Source: a virus
Strand: one strand, 5' to 3'
Virus record (IMG/VR): IMGVR_UViG_3300025120_000624
Coordinates: 1-22,249 of that record
Length of the DNA stretch: 22,249 nt
This document shows positions 4,706 through 21,274 of the stretch, one piece after another; positions within the stretch are counted from its first letter, which is position 1; every line of letters begins with the position of its first letter. The notes under the pieces were generated by a model, which was not told the DNA's origin, made no database searches, and was given only the letters and a program-made list of their open reading frames with translations. Made by a program: the position numbers and the translations under genes.

Positions 4706-4821
4706 GGAAAAAACTTGTTTACTATTTTGCAATAGCATTACTTAATATTGGTAAGCCTTTTACCTGTATCGGTAACTGGTTCTGGAAAAAACATAGAGAT
4801 GTGCTAGATTGGACTAAGTAA
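4702..4821 (+). CDS. 39-residue membrane-associated peptide
   Basis: A tiny protein starting at an ATGA overlap and ending at a TAATG overlap. Positive residues (MRKK) precede one hydrophobic stretch (LVYYFAIALLNIGKPFTCIG, residues 5-24), followed by an aromatic/basic NWFWKKHRD segment. It would sit in the inner membrane with its start inside. I do not know its role. The exact coupling to the oxygenase-like gene downstream means that gene's translation may depend on it. Confidence 0.6.
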   Translation: MRKKLVYYFAIALLNIGKPFTCIGNWFWKKHRDVLDWTK

Positions 4822-5894
4822 TGCCACCACGTAATCACAAAGATTGGACTAAAGAACCTAAAGTTGAATATATTAATTCACTAATCTACTCCGACCAGTC
4901 TTTATATGAGCAGGAAGTAGAAAATATATTCTCCAAAGTGTGGGTTCCATGCTTTCATAAAAGCGAACTTCCTAACGCCGGCAACTTCAGAACTGGTCAA
5001 ATAGCAGGGCAGAATATCCTTGCTTATAATACCGGAACGGAAATTAGAGCTTATCGTAACTACACCGTAATGGAACCTTCTGGTACCTTTGCAGCTCCTG
5101 TAGTTACATCTGAGCCTAGGTTATATTGCGAGGTAAAGCATGGTGGTATGGTTTGGATTACTTTAGACCCCAATCCCACCATGTCAGTGGAGGAATGGAC
5201 CTGCGGTGCTTTTGATTGTATTGCTGACGCGATTGATACGGAAGAAATGGAAGTCTTTCACTACCACAAAGCCGTAATAGATACTAACTACAAGCTGTGG
5301 CACGATACCAACAGCGAGTTTTACCATGACTTCATGCATTACTTCAATCGTGTGTCAGGATTTAACGATGAGTATTTCGCTAGAAAGAATATTCCTTTCG
5401 ATAATGGTCACGTTAACGTCAGTAGCTTTACTGTTAACTATGAAGAGTATGACGGATTTGAAGATAGGGGTGAGCTATCTTTTCCCAATCTGCCACCAAA
5501 CCAGTGGTACATGGTGGACTTATTCCCCGGTTATAACTTTAACCTACGGGGTAGTGCCTATCGTAGTGACAGCGTAACACCACTAGGGCCAAACAAAGTA
5601 CTGATTGAGTTCCGTGGATACGGCTTAATGAAAGACACCCCAGAAGAAAGACATACACGTATTAAGCATCATAACTCTATCTGGGGACCGTTCGGTAGGA
5701 ACTTACACGAAGATTTGATTGGCGTGGCTGGCCAAGGTACAACAATGCGTGAAGGTACAGAACCTCGTAACATCCTACACGGAAGACACGAGAATGGTAC
5801 AATACACGATGAAGTAGGTATGCGTCACTATTACGCTGAGTGGAGCAAGTGGATGGGCGTAGAAGCAAGTAGCCCATGTCAATTGGCGGCGTAG
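4821..5894 (+). CDS. Ring-hydroxylating-oxygenase-like protein without a Rieske centre
   Basis: A 357-residue protein related to the alpha subunit of Rieske non-heme iron oxygenases. The N-terminal part matches the family (QEVENIFSKVWVPCFHKSEL, then TEIRAYRN), but the Cys-x-His and Cys-x-x-His pairs that bind the 2Fe-2S cluster are absent. After RN81 the chain runs YTVMEPSGTF and reaches VKHGGMVWITLDP some 25 residues later, much sooner than in normal members. The catalytic half is kept: N-Y-K-L...E166-F-Y-H169-D-F-M-H173 and, near the end, H-E-D298-L-I-G, then WGPFG-type and EWSKWMG blocks. These give a possible 2-His-1-carboxylate iron site (H169, H173, D298). The two histidines are three residues apart, whereas four is common. 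Without the cluster, normal electron delivery is impossible, so it is either repurposed, partnered with another donor or non-catalytic. Confidence 0.8.
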   Translation: MPPRNHKDWTKEPKVEYINSLIYSDQSLYEQEVENIFSKVWVPCFHKSELPNAGNFRTGQIAGQNILAYNTGTEIRAYRNYTVMEPSGTFAAPVVTSEPRLYCEVKHGGMVWITLDPNPTMSVEEWTCGAFDCIADAIDTEEMEVFHYHKAVIDTNYKLWHDTNSEFYHDFMHYFNRVSGFNDEYFARKNIPFDNGHVNVSSFTVNYEEYDGFEDRGELSFPNLPPNQWYMVDLFPGYNFNLRGSAYRSDSVTPLGPNKVLIEFRGYGLMKDTPEERHTRIKHHNSIWGPFGRNLHEDLIGVAGQGTTMREGTEPRNILHGRHENGTIHDEVGMRHYYAEWSKWMGVEASSPCQLAA

Positions 5895-9248: not shown

Positions 9249-11354
9249 ATGGCTGATGAAGAACATATTGAAGCACTAGTATTTGAACCCGTTTCTGGTT
9301 CAGAAGCACTAGCAGGATATATTTCAAATAAATTTGAAAGCGTAGAGTCCAGCAGGTTGGAAGAAGAAGAGCGTTGGTTGAACGCCTATCGCCAATACCG
9401 TGGATTGTATGGCACAGAAACACAGTTTACGTCTACTGAAAAATCCAAAGTATTTATCAAGATTACAAAAACTAAAGTTCTAGCGGCGTATGGTCAAATC
9501 ATTGATGTATTGTTCGCCGGTCAAAGGTTCCCTTTAGGGGTTGAATCTACACTGGTGCCAGAAGGCGTTGAAGAAGCGGTACACTTTGACCCCAAAGATG
9601 ATACTAACGCTATGGATGAACTTCAAAGCAAGTATGGTTTTCCGGGCGATGGTGCAGAACTTCCACCTGGTGCTACGAGCCAGATGCTAGATGACCTAAA
9701 CTTAGGCGTATTTTCTGACGAACTGGGCGAGCTAGGTGATAAGCTACGTGTAGGTCCGGGCAAAACCGCTACATCTCAAACCTACCGCCCTGCAGAAACT
9801 GCAGCCAAACGCATGGAAAAGAAAATGCTTGACCAGCTAGAAGAGTCAAGTGCTTCTAAGCATCTGCGTCATACCGCGTTTGAGATGGCTTTGTTTGGTA
9901 CAGGCGTACTAAAAGGACCGTTTGCTTACGATAAAGAATATCCTAACTGGGATGAAGAAGGTAACTATTCTCCCATTATTAAAACCGTACCCAAGGTAGA
10001 AAATGTTTCTTTATGGAACTTGTACCCTGATTCAGATGCAAAAAATATGGATGAGTGCGAATTTGTTATTCAACGCCACCGTCTAAGCTTTTCTGAATTA
10101 CGTAATCTTAAAAAACGTCCATACTTCCGGCATGATGCTATTGATTCTGCAGTTAGCATGGGAACTAACTATGTACGTAAATGGTGGGAAGCAGACCTTG
10201 AAGATTATCGCAATACATATGATGTAGAACGATTTGAGATATTTGAGTATTGGGGTAACATTGACAAAGACCAAGCTGAAGAAGCCGGCCTTGAAATACC
10301 TAGCGAACTTGATGACTTGGATACGCTACAAGTAAACTGCTGGGTTTGTCACAATCAAGTGTTGCGTCTTGTTATCAATCCATTCACACCGAAGCGTATT
10401 CCTTACTTTGCCGCACCATACGAACTAAACCCTTACTCATTCTTTGGTGTTGGCCTAGCTGAAAACATGACTGACACACAGGCACTGATGAACGGCTTTA
10501 TGCGTATGGCTGTTGATAACGCTGTTCTGTCGGGCAACCTAATCTTTGAGATTGACGAAACCAACCTTGTTCCGGGCCAAGACCTAGAACTGTATCCGGG
10601 TAAGGTATTCCGCCGCCAAGGTGGAGCACCGGGGCAGTCGCTGTTTGGAACAAAGTATCCTAACGTATCACAAGAAAATATGATGATGTTTGATAAGGCC
10701 AGACAGCTTGCTGACGATGCTACAGGCATTCCATCGTACTCGCATGGTCAGACAGGTGTCCAAGGAACTGGACGAACTGCGGCAGGTATCTCCATGCTTA
10801 TGGGTGCTGCCCAAATCAGTATTAAGGGCGTTGTTAAAAACATTGATGATTACTTGCTACAGCCTTTGGGCGAGGCATTCTACGCATTTAACATGCAGTT
10901 TAATTTTGACCCCGCTGTTCGCGGTGATTTAGAAGTTAAAGCCCGTGGTACAGAAAGTCTTATGAAGAACGAAGTTCGCAGCCAACGTCTGCTTCAGCTT
11001 CTTCAGATTGCTGGCAATCCTAACCTAGCATCGTTTGTAAAGTTCCCTGTTGTATTGCGGGAGCTGGCACAAGCTATGGACTTGGATGCTGAAAAGATTA
11101 TTAACGATGAACGCGAAGCATTCCGTCAAGCAGAAATCATTAGAGCCGCTGGCGGTATGGCTGGCCCAGAAGAACAGGCCGCTGGTATTAATCCAATGGA
11201 TATGTCTGGCGGAGGCGGTGGTAACATCGGTGTAGGCGGAGCAGCAGTTCCGGGAGAACAGGGCTTCAGTGCCGCACCGGAACAAGCACCACAGCCAGAA
11301 GGTGGGCAAGCAATGGGCGCACAACTAGCTAGCATAATGGGCGGACTTAAATGA
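9249..11354 (+). CDS. Portal (head-tail connector) protein
   Basis: A 701-residue protein forming the ring through which DNA enters the capsid. Its length is typical for podovirus portals. The N-terminus has RLEEEERWLNAYRQYRGLYG, then KSKVFIKITKTKVLAAYGQI, the start of the clip and wing regions. Near residues 380-560 come IPYFAAPYELNPYSFFGVGL, the ALMNGFMR helix, and the stem/crown region with G-T-G-R-T-A-A-G-I-S (about 517-526), a hallmark of these portals. Residues from about 640 are a Gly/Pro/Ala/Gln-rich tail. It follows the large terminase by two bases with a GGA ribosome site. The next gene starts in its TGA (ATGA). Confidence 0.93.
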   Translation: MADEEHIEALVFEPVSGSEALAGYISNKFESVESSRLEEEERWLNAYRQYRGLYGTETQFTSTEKSKVFIKITKTKVLAAYGQIIDVLFAGQRFPLGVESTLVPEGVEEAVHFDPKDDTNAMDELQSKYGFPGDGAELPPGATSQMLDDLNLGVFSDELGELGDKLRVGPGKTATSQTYRPAETAAKRMEKKMLDQLEESSASKHLRHTAFEMALFGTGVLKGPFAYDKEYPNWDEEGNYSPIIKTVPKVENVSLWNLYPDSDAKNMDECEFVIQRHRLSFSELRNLKKRPYFRHDAIDSAVSMGTNYVRKWWEADLEDYRNTYDVERFEIFEYWGNIDKDQAEEAGLEIPSELDDLDTLQVNCWVCHNQVLRLVINPFTPKRIPYFAAPYELNPYSFFGVGLAENMTDTQALMNGFMRMAVDNAVLSGNLIFEIDETNLVPGQDLELYPGKVFRRQGGAPGQSLFGTKYPNVSQENMMMFDKARQLADDATGIPSYSHGQTGVQGTGRTAAGISMLMGAAQISIKGVVKNIDDYLLQPLGEAFYAFNMQFNFDPAVRGDLEVKARGTESLMKNEVRSQRLLQLLQIAGNPNLASFVKFPVVLRELAQAMDLDAEKIINDEREAFRQAEIIRAAGGMAGPEEQAAGINPMDMSGGGGGNIGVGGAAVPGEQGFSAAPEQAPQPEGGQAMGAQLASIMGGLK

Positions 11355-11569
11355 CCCCAGAAATAGCTAAGAAACTTCTACCTCTCGTTAATGTTAAGCG
11401 CAATCTTGATGCATTAGAAATGTATATGGAGTCCCGTATCACTGATATGCACCGCAATATGGAACAAGGTGATGATATGAAAGCCATGTATCAGGCACAA
11501 GGTGCTATACAAGAATTACGCAGGTTACGTACCCTGCGTGATGAAGTCATATCTAAGGCGGCAGCATAA
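11351..11569 (+). CDS. Small helical protein after the portal
   Basis: A 72-residue all-helical protein (LLPLVNVKRNLDALEMYMES, then HRNMEQGDDMKAMYQAQGAI and LRRLRTLRDEVISKA). It starts at an ATGA overlap with the portal stop and ends at TAATG with the next gene. No membrane segment is seen. Similar small helical proteins lie at this spot in related marine phages and carry no name. Proximity suggests a head-assembly role, for example a portal or scaffold helper, without further evidence. Confidence 0.75.
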   Translation: MTPEIAKKLLPLVNVKRNLDALEMYMESRITDMHRNMEQGDDMKAMYQAQGAIQELRRLRTLRDEVISKAAA

Positions 11570-14500
11570 TGGCTAAAACTATAAAGAAAGTCAAAGACAC
11601 CCTTGAAGAGGGATTGACTATAAATGTACCTGAAAGTTATTACAAAAAGCCCTTTGTCAAAAGAATGCTTGACCCGTCAAGTCCGACTATAGAGGTAGAT
11701 GGGGAAGAAGCTTCTGTCCGAACAATGAGTATGGATGGAAAATTATTTCCTACAATTGTTAAACAAGAATTATCTGATGGTTCATTTGGTTTAGTTGAGT
11801 TAGAACCACAACAAGCTTATGACAGAGCCATTGCTACAGGCAATTTTATACAGTTTGATAGCGATGAACAAGCTGACAGAAGTTCTAAACTACTCAGCAA
11901 AGAAGCAAGCACACTTCGCAAGGAATATAAAAATAACCAAAATTTTATAGCGCAGGGTGGTAAAGGTCTTGGGGACATAGAATTTCGTGCAGATATGGAG
12001 CCTTATTCAGGAGATGATGCATTAAATAGGTTGGCATTAGAGCTATTCCGCAGAGGGGAAATTGAATTAAAGGGCATTACACAGGACCAAGGTGAACGAC
12101 CTGGTGGAGGTGTCATAGGAGGATACGCAGGAAGAAACTTCTCTCGCCTAAATAATTCTTTGAAAAGACCTTTACGAGACCAGAATCCTCTGACTAAAGA
12201 AAAGATTATGTCAAGCCCTAGTCTCGCCACATACATTGCAGGAGTATCAGAAGACTCTGATACGACATTTGATAGACCTCGCGGAGAGTCAGAATTAGCT
12301 GCTATGCATGAACTAAGACACGGTGCTCTACGGTATTTGTTTAATAACACAGATTTAAAAAAACAAAAATATTTTGATAATTATGACATAGATGTTGAAG
12401 AAGACATTATGGATATGACTGATAATAAAACAATTAAAGACCGTAGTATACCTATAAAAATGAATGAAGTTTCTAAATTAAATCCTAAATATATAGGCGG
12501 AAGAGACAGATTTGATACGATTACTAAATATGCAACACAGGCACTTGAAGATTTTAATGTGCCGAAACGCACTGAACAGAAAAAGCCAGGCATGTTACAA
12601 AGTTTATTTGGCATGGAACAAGGGGGAATAATGATGGCACAACAAGGCAAAATGCCGCTACCGATGGAGGAAGCAACATCTGCACCTCAAGGTGGTGGAC
12701 CAAAGGCAGCTAACCCTGCGGCACAACCAGCAGGTTTGGGAGCACCTACAGGAGCACCTGCACCAGCCGGTTCATCCGACCCACGAGATGAAGCAATTAA
12801 AGAAGTGGCGCAAAAAATGCAAAGTCGTTCTGCCCCCGCACCCATTCCAGCAGAAGTTCCTCAAATGGCTCCTCCTGTACCCCCAACTGGATTAGCCGCC
12901 CCTATGGAAGAAGTGCCTATGATGGCAAAAGGTGGAATGACAGATGACAGCGGAATGTCAGTAATGATTGGACTAGGTGCCCCTCCTGCCGATTATGAAA
13001 AAGCCGCTGAAGGCAACCCACCGCCAGGCGCCACTAAAGAAGAAGTAGCTGACGACCAGCTTGTGCTTCTCAGTGAGGGCGAACTTGTAGTTCCCGCCAA
13101 TGTTGTCCGTTACCATGGTCTAGGTGCATATGAAGGTATGCGCCGTGATGCTCTTATGGGTCTTCAGGATATGGAAACCAACGGACAGATTGAGTACGTT
13201 AGTGGCGGTGCTGAAAAAGCTGATAAAGTTGATGATGATGGCGGTATTATTAAAGCTAACCGAGGTACATACTTAGGAAACCCAGGCACATATACACAAA
13301 ACCCAGTAGTTCCACAAGCCGCATCCTCTCAATACGTACAAGTGCCCGGAACCCAAGGTATGAATCCCGCGTTAAACACTATAACCGGATTGGCTAAACC
13401 AGTACTTAATGCACTTCAACCTCTATCTTTACCCGGAATGCCTACACTGGGTCAACCATATCAACCAGTAACTACGGCTAGCAGTGTATACGCTCCCAAT
13501 GTAGGTTCATACGCTGGTGATGGCACGGATGATGCCGCAGATGACAGCACTGACGACAGCACAGATGATGGAACAGGCACTGATGAGACTGAAGAAGAAA
13601 GACGTCGTCGGCTTGCAGCCCAGAATGCGGGAGATGGCGGAGATAACCCAGAAGAATACACGGGAGCTACTACTGTATTTGGTGGTACATCCCAAGATGG
13701 CATGATTAGAGGTGGCAAACAATACCAAATTGCGTACGAATCTAGCTCTAAACAAAAAGTACCGGGTATGGTTGGCGCTTTAATGAACATTGGTAATCTT
13801 GACCAAGTTAGGTTAACTGACCCAACTACAGGGCAAAGCGTTAGCATGTCTAAAGCAAAATATGATTCAATGAAAGAAAATAGAACAGACGCAGCCAATA
13901 TCAATTTTATTGATACTTTAATGCAAAACCAAGCCGGCATTGACTATAACAGAACGAGAGCTGGTGCCATTGCACCATTTAAAACAGGGCTTGCAGTAGC
14001 GGGTGAAGCATTAGGATTTGGTAATGCACCTGGAACTAGCGTGGCCGAACAGAATGAATATGCTAGAAGTCTGGCTGGCAGTCTAGGTATCGAGTACAAT
14101 GGGCAGTCCTTTGCTGAAGTAATGGCAACCCCAGAATTTAATGCGCCTAGAGAAGGTGGACCAGCTCCTGTATTTAGAGAAGATTCACAGGGTAACTTGG
14201 TTCCTGACACAAGATTTAGTACACCGCAAGGACTAGCCGCACCACAAGTTGGTGTAAGCACCTCCCCAACACTAGAAGGCGTAAGCCAAACAGGTAATTA
14301 CGCAGCTACGCCAACCTCCATAACGGACCCAGTAACTGGGCTAGTGTCAGCAGCACCATCAGCATTGGCAGGAAGACAGAGTGTTCCAGGTATAGCTAAT
14401 ATAGCTGGAACAGTTATGACCGTTATTGACCCTGTAACTGGTGCAGTTAGTTCCCAACCAATGCCGCAGATGAGCACTATGAATACGGCAGCTATGACAC

Positions 14501-15411
14501 CTGCACAACGTAGTACCGCTAGCGAAATTATTGATAGGCAGATGCAGGCAGCTGGACTTACTTCTGCACCTAGCGAACAAGTTGGTGTAAGCACCTCCCC
14601 AACACTAGAAGGCGTAAGCCAAACAGGCGATTACAGAAGTCAAGAAGTAGGTAGAAGCACATCTCCTACGCTTGAAGGTGTAAGCCAGACGGGTAACTAT
14701 GGAATTGAAGAAGGCGACTTTGACACCCCCGATAACCAAGGCGCCAGTATGGACGATGATGCCCCATCCTCAAGCCGTGATATGAGCACAAAAGAAGGAC
14801 GTAAAGCTGCTGCTGATGATGAAGCACGAGACCAAACAGGTAATCCTAATGCTACAGCCGTGACAGATAGCGCGGGTAATGCAGTTAGAAGCGGTAGTAA
14901 TAATAGCGTTGTAACTAATACTCCGCCTTCTAGTAATGACAGCGGCAGCGATGATGGCTGTTTTGCTAAAGGAACATTAATCAGTATGGCAGATGGTACT
15001 ACTAAATCAGTTGAGGATGTGGACATTAGTGATGAAGTAAAACTTGGCGGATTTGTATTTGCTACAGGTAAGTTCCTAATTAATAATCTTTATGAATATA
15101 AAGGTATCCAAGTGTCTGGTAGCCACATGGTTTTTGAAGATGGTAAGTGGCTTCGTGTTGAAGACAGCGAACTGTCCAAACTAATAACTAAAGATGACAC
15201 AATTGTATATGTATTTGGTTCAGAAAACAGACGTATTGTAATTGATGATGTGGTATTTACGGATTACTTTGAAGTCACTGAGCAAGAGAAACTAAAACAA
15301 ATTGGCAATTCTTACTTTACAAATTGGAAAAAAGATGCTAAAATTACTTCTAAATCTAATTTAGAAGTGAGAAACACAGCTAATGCTAACGCCACGACCT
15401 TGGCAGCTTGA
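11569..15411 (+). CDS. Large multidomain virion-region protein: HExxH motif and C-terminal Hint domain
   Basis: A 1280-residue protein in several modules. Residues 1-350 include HELRH (247-251), a zinc-metallopeptidase HExxH motif, with a Glu pair at 277-278 as possible third ligand. Residues about 355-460 are a Pro/Ala/Gly/Met-rich linker. Residues 498-545 contain LLSEGELVVPANVVRYHGLG, a motif of unknown role common in phage virion proteins. A low-complexity Asp/Thr stretch lies at about 650-675. Three 18-residue repeats follow at 894-1044. From Cys1131 (CFAKGTLISMADG) to the end is a Hint (intein/hedgehog) domain with the G-S-H1186 block and no terminal His-Asn, so splicing is unlikely but N-terminal self-cleavage is possible. 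It may be a minor capsid or injected protein. The next gene overlaps its end by 29 bases. Confidence 0.8.
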   Translation: MAKTIKKVKDTLEEGLTINVPESYYKKPFVKRMLDPSSPTIEVDGEEASVRTMSMDGKLFPTIVKQELSDGSFGLVELEPQQAYDRAIATGNFIQFDSDEQADRSSKLLSKEASTLRKEYKNNQNFIAQGGKGLGDIEFRADMEPYSGDDALNRLALELFRRGEIELKGITQDQGERPGGGVIGGYAGRNFSRLNNSLKRPLRDQNPLTKEKIMSSPSLATYIAGVSEDSDTTFDRPRGESELAAMHELRHGALRYLFNNTDLKKQKYFDNYDIDVEEDIMDMTDNKTIKDRSIPIKMNEVSKLNPKYIGGRDRFDTITKYATQALEDFNVPKRTEQKKPGMLQSLFGMEQGGIMMAQQGKMPLPMEEATSAPQGGGPKAANPAAQPAGLGAPTGAPAPAGSSDPRDEAIKEVAQKMQSRSAPAPIPAEVPQMAPPVPPTGLAAPMEEVPMMAKGGMTDDSGMSVMIGLGAPPADYEKAAEGNPPPGATKEEVADDQLVLLSEGELVVPANVVRYHGLGAYEGMRRDALMGLQDMETNGQIEYVSGGAEKADKVDDDGGIIKANRGTYLGNPGTYTQNPVVPQAASSQYVQVPGTQGMNPALNTITGLAKPVLNALQPLSLPGMPTLGQPYQPVTTASSVYAPNVGSYAGDGTDDAADDSTDDSTDDGTGTDETEEERRRRLAAQNAGDGGDNPEEYTGATTVFGGTSQDGMIRGGKQYQIAYESSSKQKVPGMVGALMNIGNLDQVRLTDPTTGQSVSMSKAKYDSMKENRTDAANINFIDTLMQNQAGIDYNRTRAGAIAPFKTGLAVAGEALGFGNAPGTSVAEQNEYARSLAGSLGIEYNGQSFAEVMATPEFNAPREGGPAPVFREDSQGNLVPDTRFSTPQGLAAPQVGVSTSPTLEGVSQTGNYAATPTSITDPVTGLVSAAPSALAGRQSVPGIANIAGTVMTVIDPVTGAVSSQPMPQMSTMNTAAMTPAQRSTASEIIDRQMQAAGLTSAPSEQVGVSTSPTLEGVSQTGDYRSQEVGRSTSPTLEGVSQTGNYGIEEGDFDTPDNQGASMDDDAPSSSRDMSTKEGRKAAADDEARDQTGNPNATAVTDSAGNAVRSGSNNSVVTNTPPSSNDSGSDDGCFAKGTLISMADGTTKSVEDVDISDEVKLGGFVFATGKFLINNLYEYKGIQVSGSHMVFEDGKWLRVEDSELSKLITKDDTIVYVFGSENRRIVIDDVVFTDYFEVTEQEKLKQIGNSYFTNWKKDAKITSKSNLEVRNTANANATTLAA
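14248..14301 (+). repeat. 54-bp coding repeat, copy 1
   Basis: This encodes V-G-V-S-T-S-P-T-L-E-G-V-S-Q-T-G-N-Y. It differs from copy 2 by only two bases over 54, in the N/D codon region. Confidence 0.9.
14581..14634 (+). repeat. 54-bp coding repeat, copy 2
   Basis: Nearly identical to copy 1 at the DNA level, including third codon positions, which indicates a recent duplication or gene conversion. It is followed after 12 bases by a third copy. Confidence 0.9.
14647..14700 (+). repeat. 54-bp coding repeat, copy 3 (diverged)
   Basis: This encodes the same 18 residues except that Val3 becomes Arg, but many third codon positions differ from copies 1 and 2. The protein sequence is conserved while the DNA has diverged. 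Confidence 0.85.
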
Positions 15412-15910: not shown

Positions 15911-16768
15911 ATGGCTCGTATGGCTGTACAAGAAAAGGCTACAGCAGTAGCTGCCCCTACACGATATAATAGGGATAACTCAGAAGAGATTTCAGAATTA
16001 GAAGCATTACAAAACGAACGTAACGCTATTATTGAAGAACAACAGGATGCTGAAGAAACTGAAGCTATGCAACCTGAAGAAAAAACATTTAAGAAACGGT
16101 ATGGTGACTTGCGCCGCCATGCCCAAGAAAAAGAAAAAGATATGCGCAACCAGATACGCCAGCTTGAAGAACAGTTATCGTCAGCCACAAAGGAAGGCAT
16201 AAAGCTTCCTAAATCAGATGAAGAAATTTCTGAGTGGTCAAAGCAGTATCCTGATGTTGCTAAAATTGTAGAAACAATTGCTACTAAGAAAGCACAGGAA
16301 CTAGATTCTTCAATTGAAAAACGTTTACAGAATATAGCTGAACGTGAAATTGAATCTAACCGCCAACGAGCTGAGGTAGAGTTACTTCAATTGCATCCTG
16401 ATTTTGATGAAATCAGAAATAGCGAAGATTTTCATTCGTGGGTAAGCGAACAGCCTGCATGGATACAGAAAGCACTGTATGAAAATGAAAATGATGCTAA
16501 ATCAGCAGCCCGCGCTATTGACCTGTATAAAATTGACAGTGACATAGTAACTAAAAAGGCTAAAAAACCAAATAACAAAGATGCAGCAAAGTCTGTGTCT
16601 AGTAAAAATTCTATACCAAAACCACAGTCGGATGAAGCATCAGCATCTATAAAAGAATCTGATGTAGATAAAATGTCCGCACAAGAATACGAAAAACACG
16701 CAGAAGCAATTACTGCTGCTATTCGTAGTGGAAACTTTATTTATGATTTATCTGGCTCTGCTAGATAA
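15911..16768 (+). CDS. Capsid scaffold protein
   Basis: A 285-residue, highly charged, mostly helical protein just before the capsid gene. It guides procapsid assembly and is normally lost before maturation. Residues 20-50 are an acidic helix (EEISELEALQNERNAIIEEQ). KTFKKRYGDLRRHAQEKEKD and a coiled coil follow (to about 95), then KLPKSDEEISEWSKQYPDVA, a segment shared with scaffolds of related marine phages. A second coiled coil runs to about 170, followed by LHPDFDEIRNSEDFHSWVSE and a Lys/Ser linker. The terminal helix (YEKHAEAITAAIRSGNFIYD) is the probable coat-binding end. AAGGAG lies close before the ATG. Confidence 0.88.
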   Translation: MARMAVQEKATAVAAPTRYNRDNSEEISELEALQNERNAIIEEQQDAEETEAMQPEEKTFKKRYGDLRRHAQEKEKDMRNQIRQLEEQLSSATKEGIKLPKSDEEISEWSKQYPDVAKIVETIATKKAQELDSSIEKRLQNIAEREIESNRQRAEVELLQLHPDFDEIRNSEDFHSWVSEQPAWIQKALYENENDAKSAARAIDLYKIDSDIVTKKAKKPNNKDAAKSVSSKNSIPKPQSDEASASIKESDVDKMSAQEYEKHAEAITAAIRSGNFIYDLSGSAR

Positions 16769-16998: not shown

Positions 16999-18054
16999 AT
17001 GGCTTTTCCAAGAGCTCCGGGCTATAACAACTTACCGAATGGTAATTTTAGTCCTGTAATTTACTCCAAACAGGTGCAGCTTGCATTCCGCAAGGCCGCT
17101 GTTTGTGACGCGATTACTAATAATGACTACTTTGGAGAAATCGCAAACTTTGGTGATTCAGTTAAAATCATTAAAGAGCCTGAGATTACTGTCAAAGCAT
17201 ACGAGCGTGGTACGACCATTACCCCGCAAGACCTAGACGATGAAGATTTCACACTGACCGTTGACAAAGCAAACTACTTTGCTTTTAAAGTTGACGACAT
17301 TGAGGAAGCACATTCGCACGTTAACTTTGAATCACTTTCAAGCAACCGTGCTGCATACCGTCTAGCTGACCAGTTTGACCAAGATGTTCTTGGCTACTTG
17401 ACTGGTTTCAAACAGGCTGCAATTAACGGCAACGCTAATGTAGTCAACAACATTGTTAACGGAACTGTTGCTGTTGCCACTGCTGGCACAGATGAACTTC
17501 TTACTTCAATGAAGTTGACAGCCGCTGACTTTAATGGTGGTAACGCTGCTAACTGTGTGGGCTTGAAGCCTCGCGCATCTGAAGCTGTACCAACAGGTGC
17601 TGGTGTTGCTAACCCACTGACAGTGATTGCACGTATGGGTCGTCAACTTGACCTCCAAAACGTAGAATCACAAGGTCGTTGGCTAGTAGTTGACCCAGTG
17701 TTCGTTGAGCTACTGAAAGATGAAGACTCACGTTTGTTTGATTCAGACTTCGGTGGTTCTGGTCTTCAGAACGGCTTGATTTTGAATAACCTGCATGGAT
17801 TCCAAGTTCATGTTTCTAACAACCTGCCTTCTATTGGTACAGGTCCATCTACTACAGGTGGAACTAATGCTAATAACTTTGGCATGATTGTTGCTGGTCA
17901 TTCTTCATCAGTTGCTACTGCTGACCAAATCAATAAGACGGAAACATATCGTGACCCTGACAGCTTTGCTGACATTGTCCGTGGTATGCATCTGTATGGC
18001 CGCAAGATTCTTCGTCCTGAAGGTCTTGTTAACGCCAAATACTGCTTGCTGTAG
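16999..18054 (+). CDS. Major capsid protein
   Basis: A 351-residue coat protein. It starts after a strong AGGAGA site. The opening, with VQLAFRKAAVCDAITNNDYF, is followed by FGDSVKIIKEPEITVKAYER, the beta region of P22-like/HK97-fold coats. FTLTVDKANYFAFKVDDIEE and QFDQDVLGYLTGFKQ form the spine helix. In the middle, ARMGRQLDLQNVESQGRWLV with VDPVFVELLKDEDSRLFD is typical of this capsid group. The C-terminus has GMIVAGHSSSVATADQINKT, then TYRDPDSFADIVRGMHLYGR. The position after scaffold, the length and the strong ribosome site all agree. It is probably the most highly expressed gene here. Confidence 0.95.
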   Translation: MAFPRAPGYNNLPNGNFSPVIYSKQVQLAFRKAAVCDAITNNDYFGEIANFGDSVKIIKEPEITVKAYERGTTITPQDLDDEDFTLTVDKANYFAFKVDDIEEAHSHVNFESLSSNRAAYRLADQFDQDVLGYLTGFKQAAINGNANVVNNIVNGTVAVATAGTDELLTSMKLTAADFNGGNAANCVGLKPRASEAVPTGAGVANPLTVIARMGRQLDLQNVESQGRWLVVDPVFVELLKDEDSRLFDSDFGGSGLQNGLILNNLHGFQVHVSNNLPSIGTGPSTTGGTNANNFGMIVAGHSSSVATADQINKTETYRDPDSFADIVRGMHLYGRKILRPEGLVNAKYCLL

Positions 18055-18620: not shown

Positions 18621-19547
18621 ATGGCATACGACTATTTGGGATTAACTAATGAAGTTATTGCTCGTATGAACGAGGTATCTCTGACTGCGGCTAACTTTAT
18701 CTCTGCACGGGGATTCCAAATTCAATGTCAAAATGCAGTTAATGATGCTATTAATTACATCAACCAACGAGAATTTGGTTGGTCTTTTACACATCAAACC
18801 CAAACTGAAACATTAGTTCCGGGTACTACTAGATATACTGCACCAGCTTCCACACAATCCATAGATTACGATTCCTTTAGAATTAGTAAAGATTCTAACC
18901 TAGCTTCTGCTGGAGTTACACTTAGGATTATTGATTACAAAGAGTATACACAACGATACATTGTTCAAGAAAATGATGTCGTTTCTACAACTTTAAATGG
19001 CGGTATAAATAATACCGTTACTACAATTACTGTAGTTAGCACAGCGGGTTTTGACGCCGCAGGGTCAATACAGATTGCTAATGAAACAATCACGTATACT
19101 GGTACCACTACCACAACCTTTACTGGTTGTACACGGGGTACAGCAGGAACAACTGCTGCCGCACATAATACCGGCGTTAATGTAGCACAGTTTACAACTG
19201 GGGGTATACCCAGTCTTGTATTTAGAACACCTGATAACAACTTCGGTTTGTATCCGTACCCTAATAAAGGTTATGAATTAGTGTATGAGTACTTTGATAG
19301 GCCCACTATTTTAGTGGCGGCAACTGATGTTCCAACTATTCCAGAACAATTTAGACAAGTTATTGTAGATGGTGCCACAGCGTACTCATATCAGTACCGA
19401 GGTGAAGCACAACAGTACGGCCTTAACTTTGCTCGTTTTGAAGAAGGCATTAAACAAATGCAAACCCTATTACTCAATAGGGCAGACTATATCCGTTCTA
19501 CTTATATACCGGCTGTTCAACGGTATGGAAATATTGCGGGATATTAA
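18621..19547 (+). CDS. Head-to-tail adaptor-like protein with inserted module
   Basis: A 308-residue protein just after the terminator, with AAGGATG before its ATG. The beginning (YLGLTNEVIARMNEVSLTAA, then QCQNAVNDAINYINQREFGW) is helical and matches the adaptor/tail tubular A type of short-tailed phages, which joins portal and tail. The ending has IPEQFRQVIVDGATAYSYQY and helices with NRADYIRSTYIP. Between them, residues 123-188 are a Thr/Gly/Val-rich beta module (ITYTGTTTTTFTGCTRGTAG core) that also occurs in the next gene. In sequence databases such modules are assigned to the FCCH-like domain, by memory. The module is probably surface-exposed. Confidence 0.8.
   Translation: MAYDYLGLTNEVIARMNEVSLTAANFISARGFQIQCQNAVNDAINYINQREFGWSFTHQTQTETLVPGTTRYTAPASTQSIDYDSFRISKDSNLASAGVTLRIIDYKEYTQRYIVQENDVVSTTLNGGINNTVTTITVVSTAGFDAAGSIQIANETITYTGTTTTTFTGCTRGTAGTTAAAHNTGVNVAQFTTGGIPSLVFRTPDNNFGLYPYPNKGYELVYEYFDRPTILVAATDVPTIPEQFRQVIVDGATAYSYQYRGEAQQYGLNFARFEEGIKQMQTLLLNRADYIRSTYIPAVQRYGNIAGY
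18987..19184 (+). repeat. 66-codon inserted module, copy in adaptor
   Basis: This encodes residues 123-188 of the adaptor: T-T-L-N...TTITVVSTAGF...ETITYTGTTTTTFTGCTRGT...AAAH. The same module occupies 19844-20041 in the next gene with the same length. Confidence 0.85.
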
Positions 19548-19558
19548 GGTAAAAAACT

Positions 19559-21274
19559 ATGTCAGATGAAACTGGCCTCAATCCGTTTGTATTTGCTTGT
19601 CAGGGGGGTCTAGTACTTGACCAATCTACTTTCGCTATGCAGCCCGGAATGGCGTTAGAATTAGAAAACTTTGAACCTGCCACTACTGGCGGATATCGTC
19701 GTATATCTGGCTATACAAAATGGAATCCTAATATAGTTCCACAAGACCAAAGTGCCAGCGAACAAATATTAATGTCTGCACATTTTGATGGTAACGTTAT
19801 TGCAGCGAGGGGGCGTAAAGTTTGGAAAGCTACTAATGGTAGCACAACGTTAAGCCTAGCATTGAATAACTCAGTCACGACTGTAACAGTAACATCCACT
19901 ACAAACTTTAGTACCCAAGGAACACTATTAGTTGGTTCTGAAGAGATTACCTACACTGGTAAAACTAGCACAACTTTTACAGGATGTTCGCGCGGAGCTA
20001 ATAGCACTTCTGCAGCAGCACACCTTAATAACGCAGTTATTACCCAAACTTGGACAGAGCTAGATTCAGGAAGAACAGGTGCAGGTAGATACTCTTTTTT
20101 TAGATACAATCTTGCAGGTGTAGATTATATTATATGGGCTGACGGTGCTAATGCGGCATCTAGATATAAAACTGCCAGCAACACAATATTAGACATTACA
20201 GCATCGGGTGCACCCGCAGACCCTAAATTTGTTACCGGCTATAAAAACCATATGTTCTTTGCTGGTATGTCTGCAACACCACAATCTTTAGTATTCAGTG
20301 CACCATTTAATGAAAATGATTTTCAAACGGGTCAAGGTGCAGGTATAATAAATGTAGATAGTCCTATTACAGGATTATTTCCATTTCGTGATTCTTTAGT
20401 TATTTTCTGCGAAGAACGAATATTTAAGTTAGTAGGTAACACTCTATCTGACTTTCAATTACAACCAATTACACGTGAAATAGGATGTCTTAACGGTTCT
20501 ACTATTCAAGAATTTGCAGGAGACATTGTATTTCTAGGGCCGGATGGACTGCGTACGGTTGCTGGTACAGCCAAAATTGGTGACGTAGAACTTGGTACAA
20601 TTAGCCGCGCAGTTCAAGAACGTTTTGAACGTTTATCAGACGTGGATGAATTTACAAGTACAGTTATTGCAGATAAAACACAATATAGAATATTTTTTAC
20701 TAATTCTGAAACACCCAGAGCTGTAACAACCGGCATTATATGTGTAAAAAAGAGCGAGGCGTATGAGTTTGCTGATTTAAAAGGCATACGTCCCAGTTGT
20801 ACAGATAATGTTGTATCTAATGGGGAAAGCATTATTGTACACGGCGACTTTGACGGGTACATATATAGACAAGAACAAGGGAATGACTTTGACGGTAATA
20901 ACGTAACTGGAAAGTATCGTTCCCCAGATTTAACAATGGGTGACGCAGGTTTACGTAAATCCTTTCAACGTGTCATTCTTAACTACGCACCCGAAGCGGC
21001 TGTTAATGCAGACTTATTCGTGCGTTATGACTATGAAGCACCCAACGTAGCTCGTCCAGCCGCATATCCATTTGACAGTGCCAGTGTAGTAGCCGTGTAT
21101 GGAAGTTCTGTATATGGCACTGCAACATACGGTGGACAGTCTAACCCGTTAGTAAGACAGCCTATTGAAGGTAGTGGATTTGCTGTAGCACTGCGCGTTA
21201 ACGATAGAGGTACATCAGCACCCTACGCCCTAAAAGGGTTTCAGTTAGAATTTACAGCCGATGCAAGGAGATAA
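19559..21274 (+). CDS. Large tail protein (tail tube/hub type)
   Basis: A 571-residue mainly beta protein. It opens MSDETGLNPFVFACQGGLVL and DQSTFAMQPGMALELENFEP, a start I recognise from tail proteins of marine podoviruses. Blade-like repeats follow, containing GYRRISGYTKW, MSAHFDGNVIAARGRKVWKA, DYIIWADGANAASRYKT, FVTGYKNHMFFAGMSATPQS and GEIVFLGPDGLRTVAG-like strands, which suggests a beta-propeller such as the tail stabilisation or hub protein of short-tailed phages. The later part (QFAVALRVNDRGTSAPYALK-like) is a beta-sandwich. Residues 96-161 carry the same inserted module as the adaptor. A RBS-like AAGGT lies before ATG 19559. The exact role is inferred. Confidence 0.75.
   Translation: MSDETGLNPFVFACQGGLVLDQSTFAMQPGMALELENFEPATTGGYRRISGYTKWNPNIVPQDQSASEQILMSAHFDGNVIAARGRKVWKATNGSTTLSLALNNSVTTVTVTSTTNFSTQGTLLVGSEEITYTGKTSTTFTGCSRGANSTSAAAHLNNAVITQTWTELDSGRTGAGRYSFFRYNLAGVDYIIWADGANAASRYKTASNTILDITASGAPADPKFVTGYKNHMFFAGMSATPQSLVFSAPFNENDFQTGQGAGIINVDSPITGLFPFRDSLVIFCEERIFKLVGNTLSDFQLQPITREIGCLNGSTIQEFAGDIVFLGPDGLRTVAGTAKIGDVELGTISRAVQERFERLSDVDEFTSTVIADKTQYRIFFTNSETPRAVTTGIICVKKSEAYEFADLKGIRPSCTDNVVSNGESIIVHGDFDGYIYRQEQGNDFDGNNVTGKYRSPDLTMGDAGLRKSFQRVILNYAPEAAVNADLFVRYDYEAPNVARPAAYPFDSASVVAVYGSSVYGTATYGGQSNPLVRQPIEGSGFAVALRVNDRGTSAPYALKGFQLEFTADARR
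19844..20041 (+). repeat. 66-codon inserted module, copy in tail protein
   Basis: This encodes residues 96-161: T-T-L-S...TTVTVTSTTNF...EEITYTGKTSTTFTGCSRGA...AAAH. By eye roughly half of the residues are shared with the adaptor copy, while the DNA has diverged. Confidence 0.85.

Follow-up and report, generated by a model that had tools for sequence, protein, structure and literature searches.

Phages of the HMO-2011 type have been described as broadly distributed, and dominant, across the ocean (PMC9038755). Their protein gp49 measures 762 aa in the Puniceispirillum phage HMO-2011 (ADW08441) and 715 aa in the Roseobacter phage CRP-1, and in neither phage is it accompanied by an N-terminal enzyme module, a Hint domain or a gene for a GNAT-fold protein. 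Here, we analyze a 1280-residue counterpart encoded in the virus record IMGVR_UViG_3300025120_000624 of IMG/VR, whose 22,249 nt are referred to as the window; positions are counted over this whole stretch. By gene order and homology (lysozyme, TerL, portal, gp49, scaffold, capsid and MsmA-like oxygenase), the source phage is an HMO-2011-type marine podovirus. In a tblastn search of cultured phages, the locus was matched only by HMO-2011 and its roseophage relatives, through the LSEGE region. By sequence, the window protein is an enlarged homologue of gp49, with which it has in common the locus, the LSEGE motif, a low-complexity body and a C-terminal module headed by cysteine.

Every part of the system described below belongs to a known kind. 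Gluzincin zinc metallopeptidases, which are thermolysin-like, carry HExxH followed by ExxxD. The N-terminal module of the window protein resembles them in an HE[LV]xH motif on a predicted helix with EExxxD downstream on the next predicted helix, and differs from them in having no detectable match to a sequence family or fold. Bacterial intein-like (BIL) domains and Hedgehog Hog domains have in common with the C-terminal domain Cys1, a block B [TS]xxH, glycine at position −1 and the absence of a +1 nucleophile. According to the chemistry of inteins, a Hint domain devoid of the terminal His-Asn and the +1 nucleophile could still build a thioester, with cleavage or transfer at the N terminus, but could not splice (PMC7664689); like BIL and Hog domains, the window Hint seems capable of the first N–S acyl shift only. 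It departs from them in its shorter length, in Thr-Asp replacing the terminal His-Asn, in a profile match limited to block A and in its linkage to a GNAT-fold gene.

Both ends of the protein are exchanged among relatives

On viral contigs, relatives of the window protein (designated by locus number) have the body in common and vary at both ends. The N-terminal slot is filled by the HExxH module in the window, L001–L004, L007, L017–L022 and L047, and by a DUF6973-like module in L005, L009, L012, L045, L048 and L053 (PF22322, sub-threshold, E ~1e-4 to 1e-3). Two Hint-bearing relatives carry in this slot domains of phage tail lysozyme and LysM proteins (PF18013, PF01476): L033 a phage lysozyme (PF18013, E 3.5e-14) with LysM, and L037 LysM, where the window has the HExxH module. 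Other modules are found in some relatives, and HMO-2011 has nothing in this position. In L033 (2013–5453) and L037 (1983–5462), the slot opens with a hydrophobic signal- or membrane-like stretch, followed by the lysozyme and/or LysM.

The C-terminal slot is occupied by Hint in the window, L001, L005, L020, L031, L033 and L037, by a CVIATH-type module in L002, L004, L009 and L012, by an ICTE-type module in HMO-2011 and L050–L073, and by a CCFI-type module in L047. The alternative modules all begin at a cysteine. Comparison led us to reject them as homologues of Hint, and homology among the alternatives themselves is weak at best. The idea that the CVIATH, ICTE and CCFI modules are CFI-box-CTERM domains was not supported either, there being no NCBIfam match at E ≤ 1.

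HExxH occurs without Hint in L002, L003, L004 and L047, and Hint without HExxH in L005, L031, L033 and L037; all four combinations of HExxH or DUF6973 with Hint or CVIATH are seen. The boundaries of exchange are sharp. L001 and L053 differ in their modules at both ends, yet their identity is 97.6% as far as the start codon, 90.7% within the body and 98.2% past the GNAT stop codon. Between L005 and L012, homology is lost 7 to 10 nt before the Cys codon and regained past the GNAT stop codon. For the N-terminal module, the exchange boundaries fall on the ATG and immediately ahead of the core. Allele comparison demonstrates that the two ends are independently exchangeable on one low-complexity body. 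Because all combinations occur and exchange is sharp, HExxH and Hint are not a co-evolved pair.

The Hint-like domain and a GNAT-fold gene form one cassette

The gene immediately downstream encodes a protein whose AlphaFold2 model (predicted local distance difference test [pLDDT] 93) has the GNAT fold; its best PDB matches are all acetyltransferases, with E values to 7e-7. Besides this likeness in predicted fold, the family differs from GNAT acyltransferases in the absence of the Q/RxxGxG/A acyl-CoA loop, in place of which it has K-x-x-H/F-K-A, and its marine subfamily in lying nearly always near a Hint open reading frame (ORF).

Among HMO-2011-type relatives, the GNAT gene lies downstream of every Hint allele for which that stretch is in view and of 0 of 23 distinct non-Hint alleles; we attach no probability to this pattern because the sequences are related. 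Viral contigs fetched with the Hint profile gave 53 distinct Hint ORFs, 44 of them with GNAT downstream. The nine others comprise two cut by the contig end, one of another Hint type and six of a separate Hint subfamily. Conversely, a Hint ORF lies at most 2.5 kb upstream of 55 of 56 distinct marine-type GNAT ORFs, the exception being at a contig end. Twenty-eight of the 55 touch the Hint ORF. The other 27 are separated from it by 1.2 kb; at these loci, the Hint protein is Gly-rich and tail-fibre-like, and genes for an Asp/Asn beta-hydroxylase (PF05118) and a short-chain dehydrogenase (PF00106) precede GNAT. These counts establish, at the level of gene arrangement, that Hint and GNAT constitute one exchange cassette, with near-exclusive linkage in the marine subfamily. 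The GNAT partner was found at 0 of 40 loci of Hint relatives in bacterial genomes, which gives no indication of a bacterial counterpart of the cassette.

Three minor observations concern these genes. The order Gly-rich Hint protein, hydroxylase, dehydrogenase and GNAT (L321, 1–2953; L288; L285–L333, ~27 loci) looks like a tail-fibre modification cluster. At two Hint loci without marine-type GNAT, an ORF of ~150 aa two genes downstream appears by eye to be another type of acetyltransferase (L181, 4962–5417; L195, 4937–5374). GNAT homologues in Bacteroidetes phages (L232–L236) lie beside structural or tail genes and are unannotated except for one "N-terminal acetyltransferase subunit."

The Hint-like domain retains Cys1 and the block B histidine

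The original prediction placed a Hint domain from Cys1131 onward, with a fragment boundary at 1130/1131; the sequence supports a Hint-type domain there, with G1130-C1131 as its predicted scissile bond. The domain opens with CFAKGT. All 21 diverse Hint members examined have Cys1 (C1131), the block B His (H1186) and an Asp where the terminal Asn would be, and residue −1 is Gly in 45 of 49 Hint sequences. Block A matches PI-SceI (E 6e-4) and Hom_end_hint (E 2e-4, below the Pfam cut-off). It also aligns (hhalign, 97%) with a canonical BIL domain from related loci, whose whole length in turn matches the solved BIL 2lwy. Searches of Pfam, PHROGs and NCBIfam with the whole 1280-aa protein returned only sub-threshold Hint matches, and phmmer with the same query found no relative of solved structure. 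At the C terminus, Thr1231-Asp1232 stands where His-Asn is expected, and Tyr1233 follows in place of a +1 Cys, Ser or Thr nucleophile. Because the C-terminal His-Asn is lost and Cys1 and the block B His are kept, the domain would at most form a thioester at Gly1130-Cys1131. The ratio of nonsynonymous to synonymous substitution rates (dN/dS) is 0.06 to 0.13 for the Hint domain and 0.09 to 0.10 for the GNAT gene, indicating strong purifying selection on both. Cysteines upstream of Cys1 are scarce (10 in 23,781 residues); we considered this as support but give it little weight, given that cysteine is likewise missing from other low-complexity virion genes of the window.

Tandem Hints occur at L151, L153 and L170, where a complete BIL domain ending in His-Asn lies within a few residues before a Hint of the window type. 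A match in Vibrio phage vB_VmeM-32 is unrelated: it is the fragment of an intein, carried by a RecA-like gene.

The N-terminal module is probably a gluzincin-like hydrolase

The putative zinc-peptidase motif H247-E-L-R-H251 with E277/E278 downstream, noted originally from the window sequence, recurs in an alignment with 19 relatives reaching down to 22% identity: H247, E248, H251 and E277 are invariant, E278 is nearly so, and an LGDxExRAD motif lies upstream of HExxH in the same alignment. In other phage proteins, some of which are stand-alone ORFs of ~320 to 370 aa, a profile scan detected relatives of the module at 22 to 28% identity. All of these carry HE[LV]xH (HELRH, HELAH, HELTH, HELGH, HEVGH or HELFH). 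E278-x-x-x-D282 fits the gluzincin ExxxD pattern. At the composition of this protein, the chance expectation for HExxH is 0.0008, conservation being the stronger test; of only four His in the whole chain, HELRH accounts for two and Hint block B for one, and the single Cys is C1131.

The original prediction asked whether HExxH sits on an active-site helix with Glu277 or Glu278 near. In the AlphaFold2 model of the N-terminal module, HELRH lies in the middle of one helix (240–260), and the following helix (274–292) has E277/E278 at its start. This answers the question in part; the model is of medium confidence (mean pLDDT 69.8) and matched no known fold, Foldseek with the HExxH model returning nothing from the PDB or a viral library at E ≤ 0.001. 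The invariance of HExxH...E across 19 sequences, down to 22% identity, makes a gluzincin-like metal hydrolase of an undescribed family the probable identity of the module, to which we give no family name because the fold search matched nothing.

Functional interpretation and alternatives

On balance, we lean toward a joint reading in which a modular, probably virion-associated protein with exchangeable ends brings together an envelope hydrolase, a Hint thioester and acyl transfer by GNAT. The N-terminal module would be a metal-dependent hydrolase that acts on the host envelope during entry, a target suggested by the lysozyme and LysM that fill the same slot elsewhere; by the same analogy, an envelope-directed or injected role of the protein is plausible. 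Cys1131 and His1186 would form the thioester at Gly1130, so that Hint could detach or hand over the upstream chain without splicing, and the GNAT-fold partner might act as an acyltransferase on the activated or freshly cut chain, or on Hint itself.

Several observations weigh against this joint reading. The HExxH model has the confidence and the lack of fold matches noted above. The significant profile match of Hint covers block A only (~29 residues), the positions of block B and the terminus come from an alignment, and canonical Hints are longer by ~30 residues. In the GNAT family, the usual acyl-CoA loop motif is missing, the six Hint ORFs of the separate subfamily have no GNAT directly downstream, and the tail-gene regions of Bacteroidetes phages that encode distant GNAT homologues have no Hint. 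A literature search found no proteomic, biochemical or cleavage data on these proteins or virions.

A more specific proposal, which we regard as a long shot, is a two-part protein-conjugation system. Hint would activate Gly1130 as a thioester, and GNAT, devoid of the usual acyl-CoA loop, would take this protein thioester in place of acyl-CoA and couple the phage protein to an amine, whether of a second virion protein, of a small molecule or of a component of the host.

Among the alternatives, it is possible, though on the unlikely side, that Hint is no longer reactive and that all C-terminal modules serve, as folded caps or docking domains, to attach the protein to the portal, scaffold or tail, with GNAT as their assembly chaperone. 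The replacement of Hint by unrelated folds in the same gene, the loss of its C-terminal His-Asn and the missing coenzyme A motif of GNAT would all suit such a role. Against it stands the retention of Cys1, the −1 Gly and the block B His across very different host proteins, since a mere cap would have no need of these residues.

The pairing of two potential means of peptide-bond cleavage in one chain led the original prediction to suggest a processed polyprotein or an injected protein released by cleavage, in which the HExxH protease and Hint jointly liberate separate functional fragments. In keeping with this idea, the chain holds two motifs of catalytic type, its G|C junction would suit cleavage at the N terminus of Hint, and relatives have enzymatic N-terminal modules. 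The motifs are inherited independently, the constant partner of Hint is GNAT, cleavage would yield a low-complexity body and Hint by itself rather than separate enzymes, and no conserved second cleavage site was seen, so this account is not borne out and we consider it improbable. Least credible of all is that Hint and GNAT are the remains of an intein together with its passenger gene, spreading as a mobile element in phage structural genes without service to the phage: insertion is precise in several unrelated host genes and a canonical Hint ending in His-Asn directly precedes the cassette at some loci, but the cassette has no endonuclease, is replaced allelically by other modules rather than present or absent as an insertion, and is under strong purifying selection in both genes.

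The searched literature yielded no description of a GNAT-fold partner linked to a Hint that retains Cys1 but is splicing-dead, nor of allelic exchange of such a Hint with unrelated Cys-headed modules, and the window-type Hint is absent from 50,697 cultured or deposited phage records. In uncultivated marine viruses, a non-splicing Hint ends different phage proteins and almost always lies beside a GNAT-fold gene, which suggests that the pair is an undescribed protein-modification unit in phages. Were the pair to modify or conjugate virion proteins, it would represent a new post-translational system of phages and might serve as a tool for protein ligation. A protein that lacked annotation in an abundant group of marine phages thereby becomes a testable machine, and relatives that exchange N-terminal enzymes within a single slot provide a natural experiment on the ways in which phages get through cell envelopes.

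Gene neighborhood and further features

The ORF and its translation agree with the original prediction, as does the LLSEGELVVPANVV motif (residues 500–513). The gene was placed between portal and scaffold, which is correct with the addition of a small gene after the portal and with the scaffold assigned its role by position only. Features are listed in Table 1.

Table 1. Features of the modular gene and its surroundings in the window
Feature	Position	Strand	Remarks
Portal protein	9249..11354	+	SU10_portal, E 1e-30; phrog_332/1216; upstream landmark
72-aa gene between portal and modular gene	11351..11569	+	Kept in relatives
1280-aa modular protein, enlarged HMO-2011 gp49 homologue	11569..15411	+	
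N-terminal exchange module, residues 1–350	11569..12618	+	DGK...PT domain (residues ~28–120), then LGDxExRAD motif and HExxH domain
HELRH, residues 247–251, in predicted helix 240–260	12307..12321	+	H247, E248 and H251 invariant in 19 sequences; AlphaFold2 model
E277-E278-D279, start of predicted helix 274–292	12397..12405	+	Candidate third zinc ligand E277 or E278
Low-complexity body, residues 351–1130	12619..14958	+	Holds LLSEGELVVPANVV at 13066–13107 and QTGNPN linker near 14833
Compact Hint-like module	14959..15408	+	Cys1131 at 14959; block B S-G-S-H1186 at 15115; Asp1232 at 15262; ~48-aa tail
GNAT-fold partner protein, 146 aa	15383..15823	+	phrog_17252; 29-nt overlap with 3′ end of Hint gene
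Presumed scaffold protein	15911..16768	+	phrog_13678; role by position only; downstream landmark
Major head protein	16999..18054	+	phrog_267, E 1e-62

Residues 351 to 500 and 561 to 1130 of the modular protein are of low complexity, consisting to 73 to 74% of G, A, S, T, P, Q, N, D and E. The body contains three in-frame repeats of 58 nt (QVGVSTSPTLEGVSQTGNY) at 14244–14301, 14577–14634 and 14643–14700, two of the three copies being 97% identical.

Elsewhere in the window, a ring-hydroxylating oxygenase alpha subunit (PF00848) at 4821–5894 is the counterpart of the HMO-2011 MsmA-like gene. Two overlapping small ORFs rich in Lys and Arg (1509–1769 and 1756–2055) resemble histone-like or DNA-binding-like basic proteins. 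Finally, the adjacent tail genes at 18621–19547 and 19559–21274 contain a similar insert of ~60 aa, TxTVxVxSTxxFxxxGxxxxxxExITYTGxxxTTFTGCxRG, which matches baseplate PHROGs in both.

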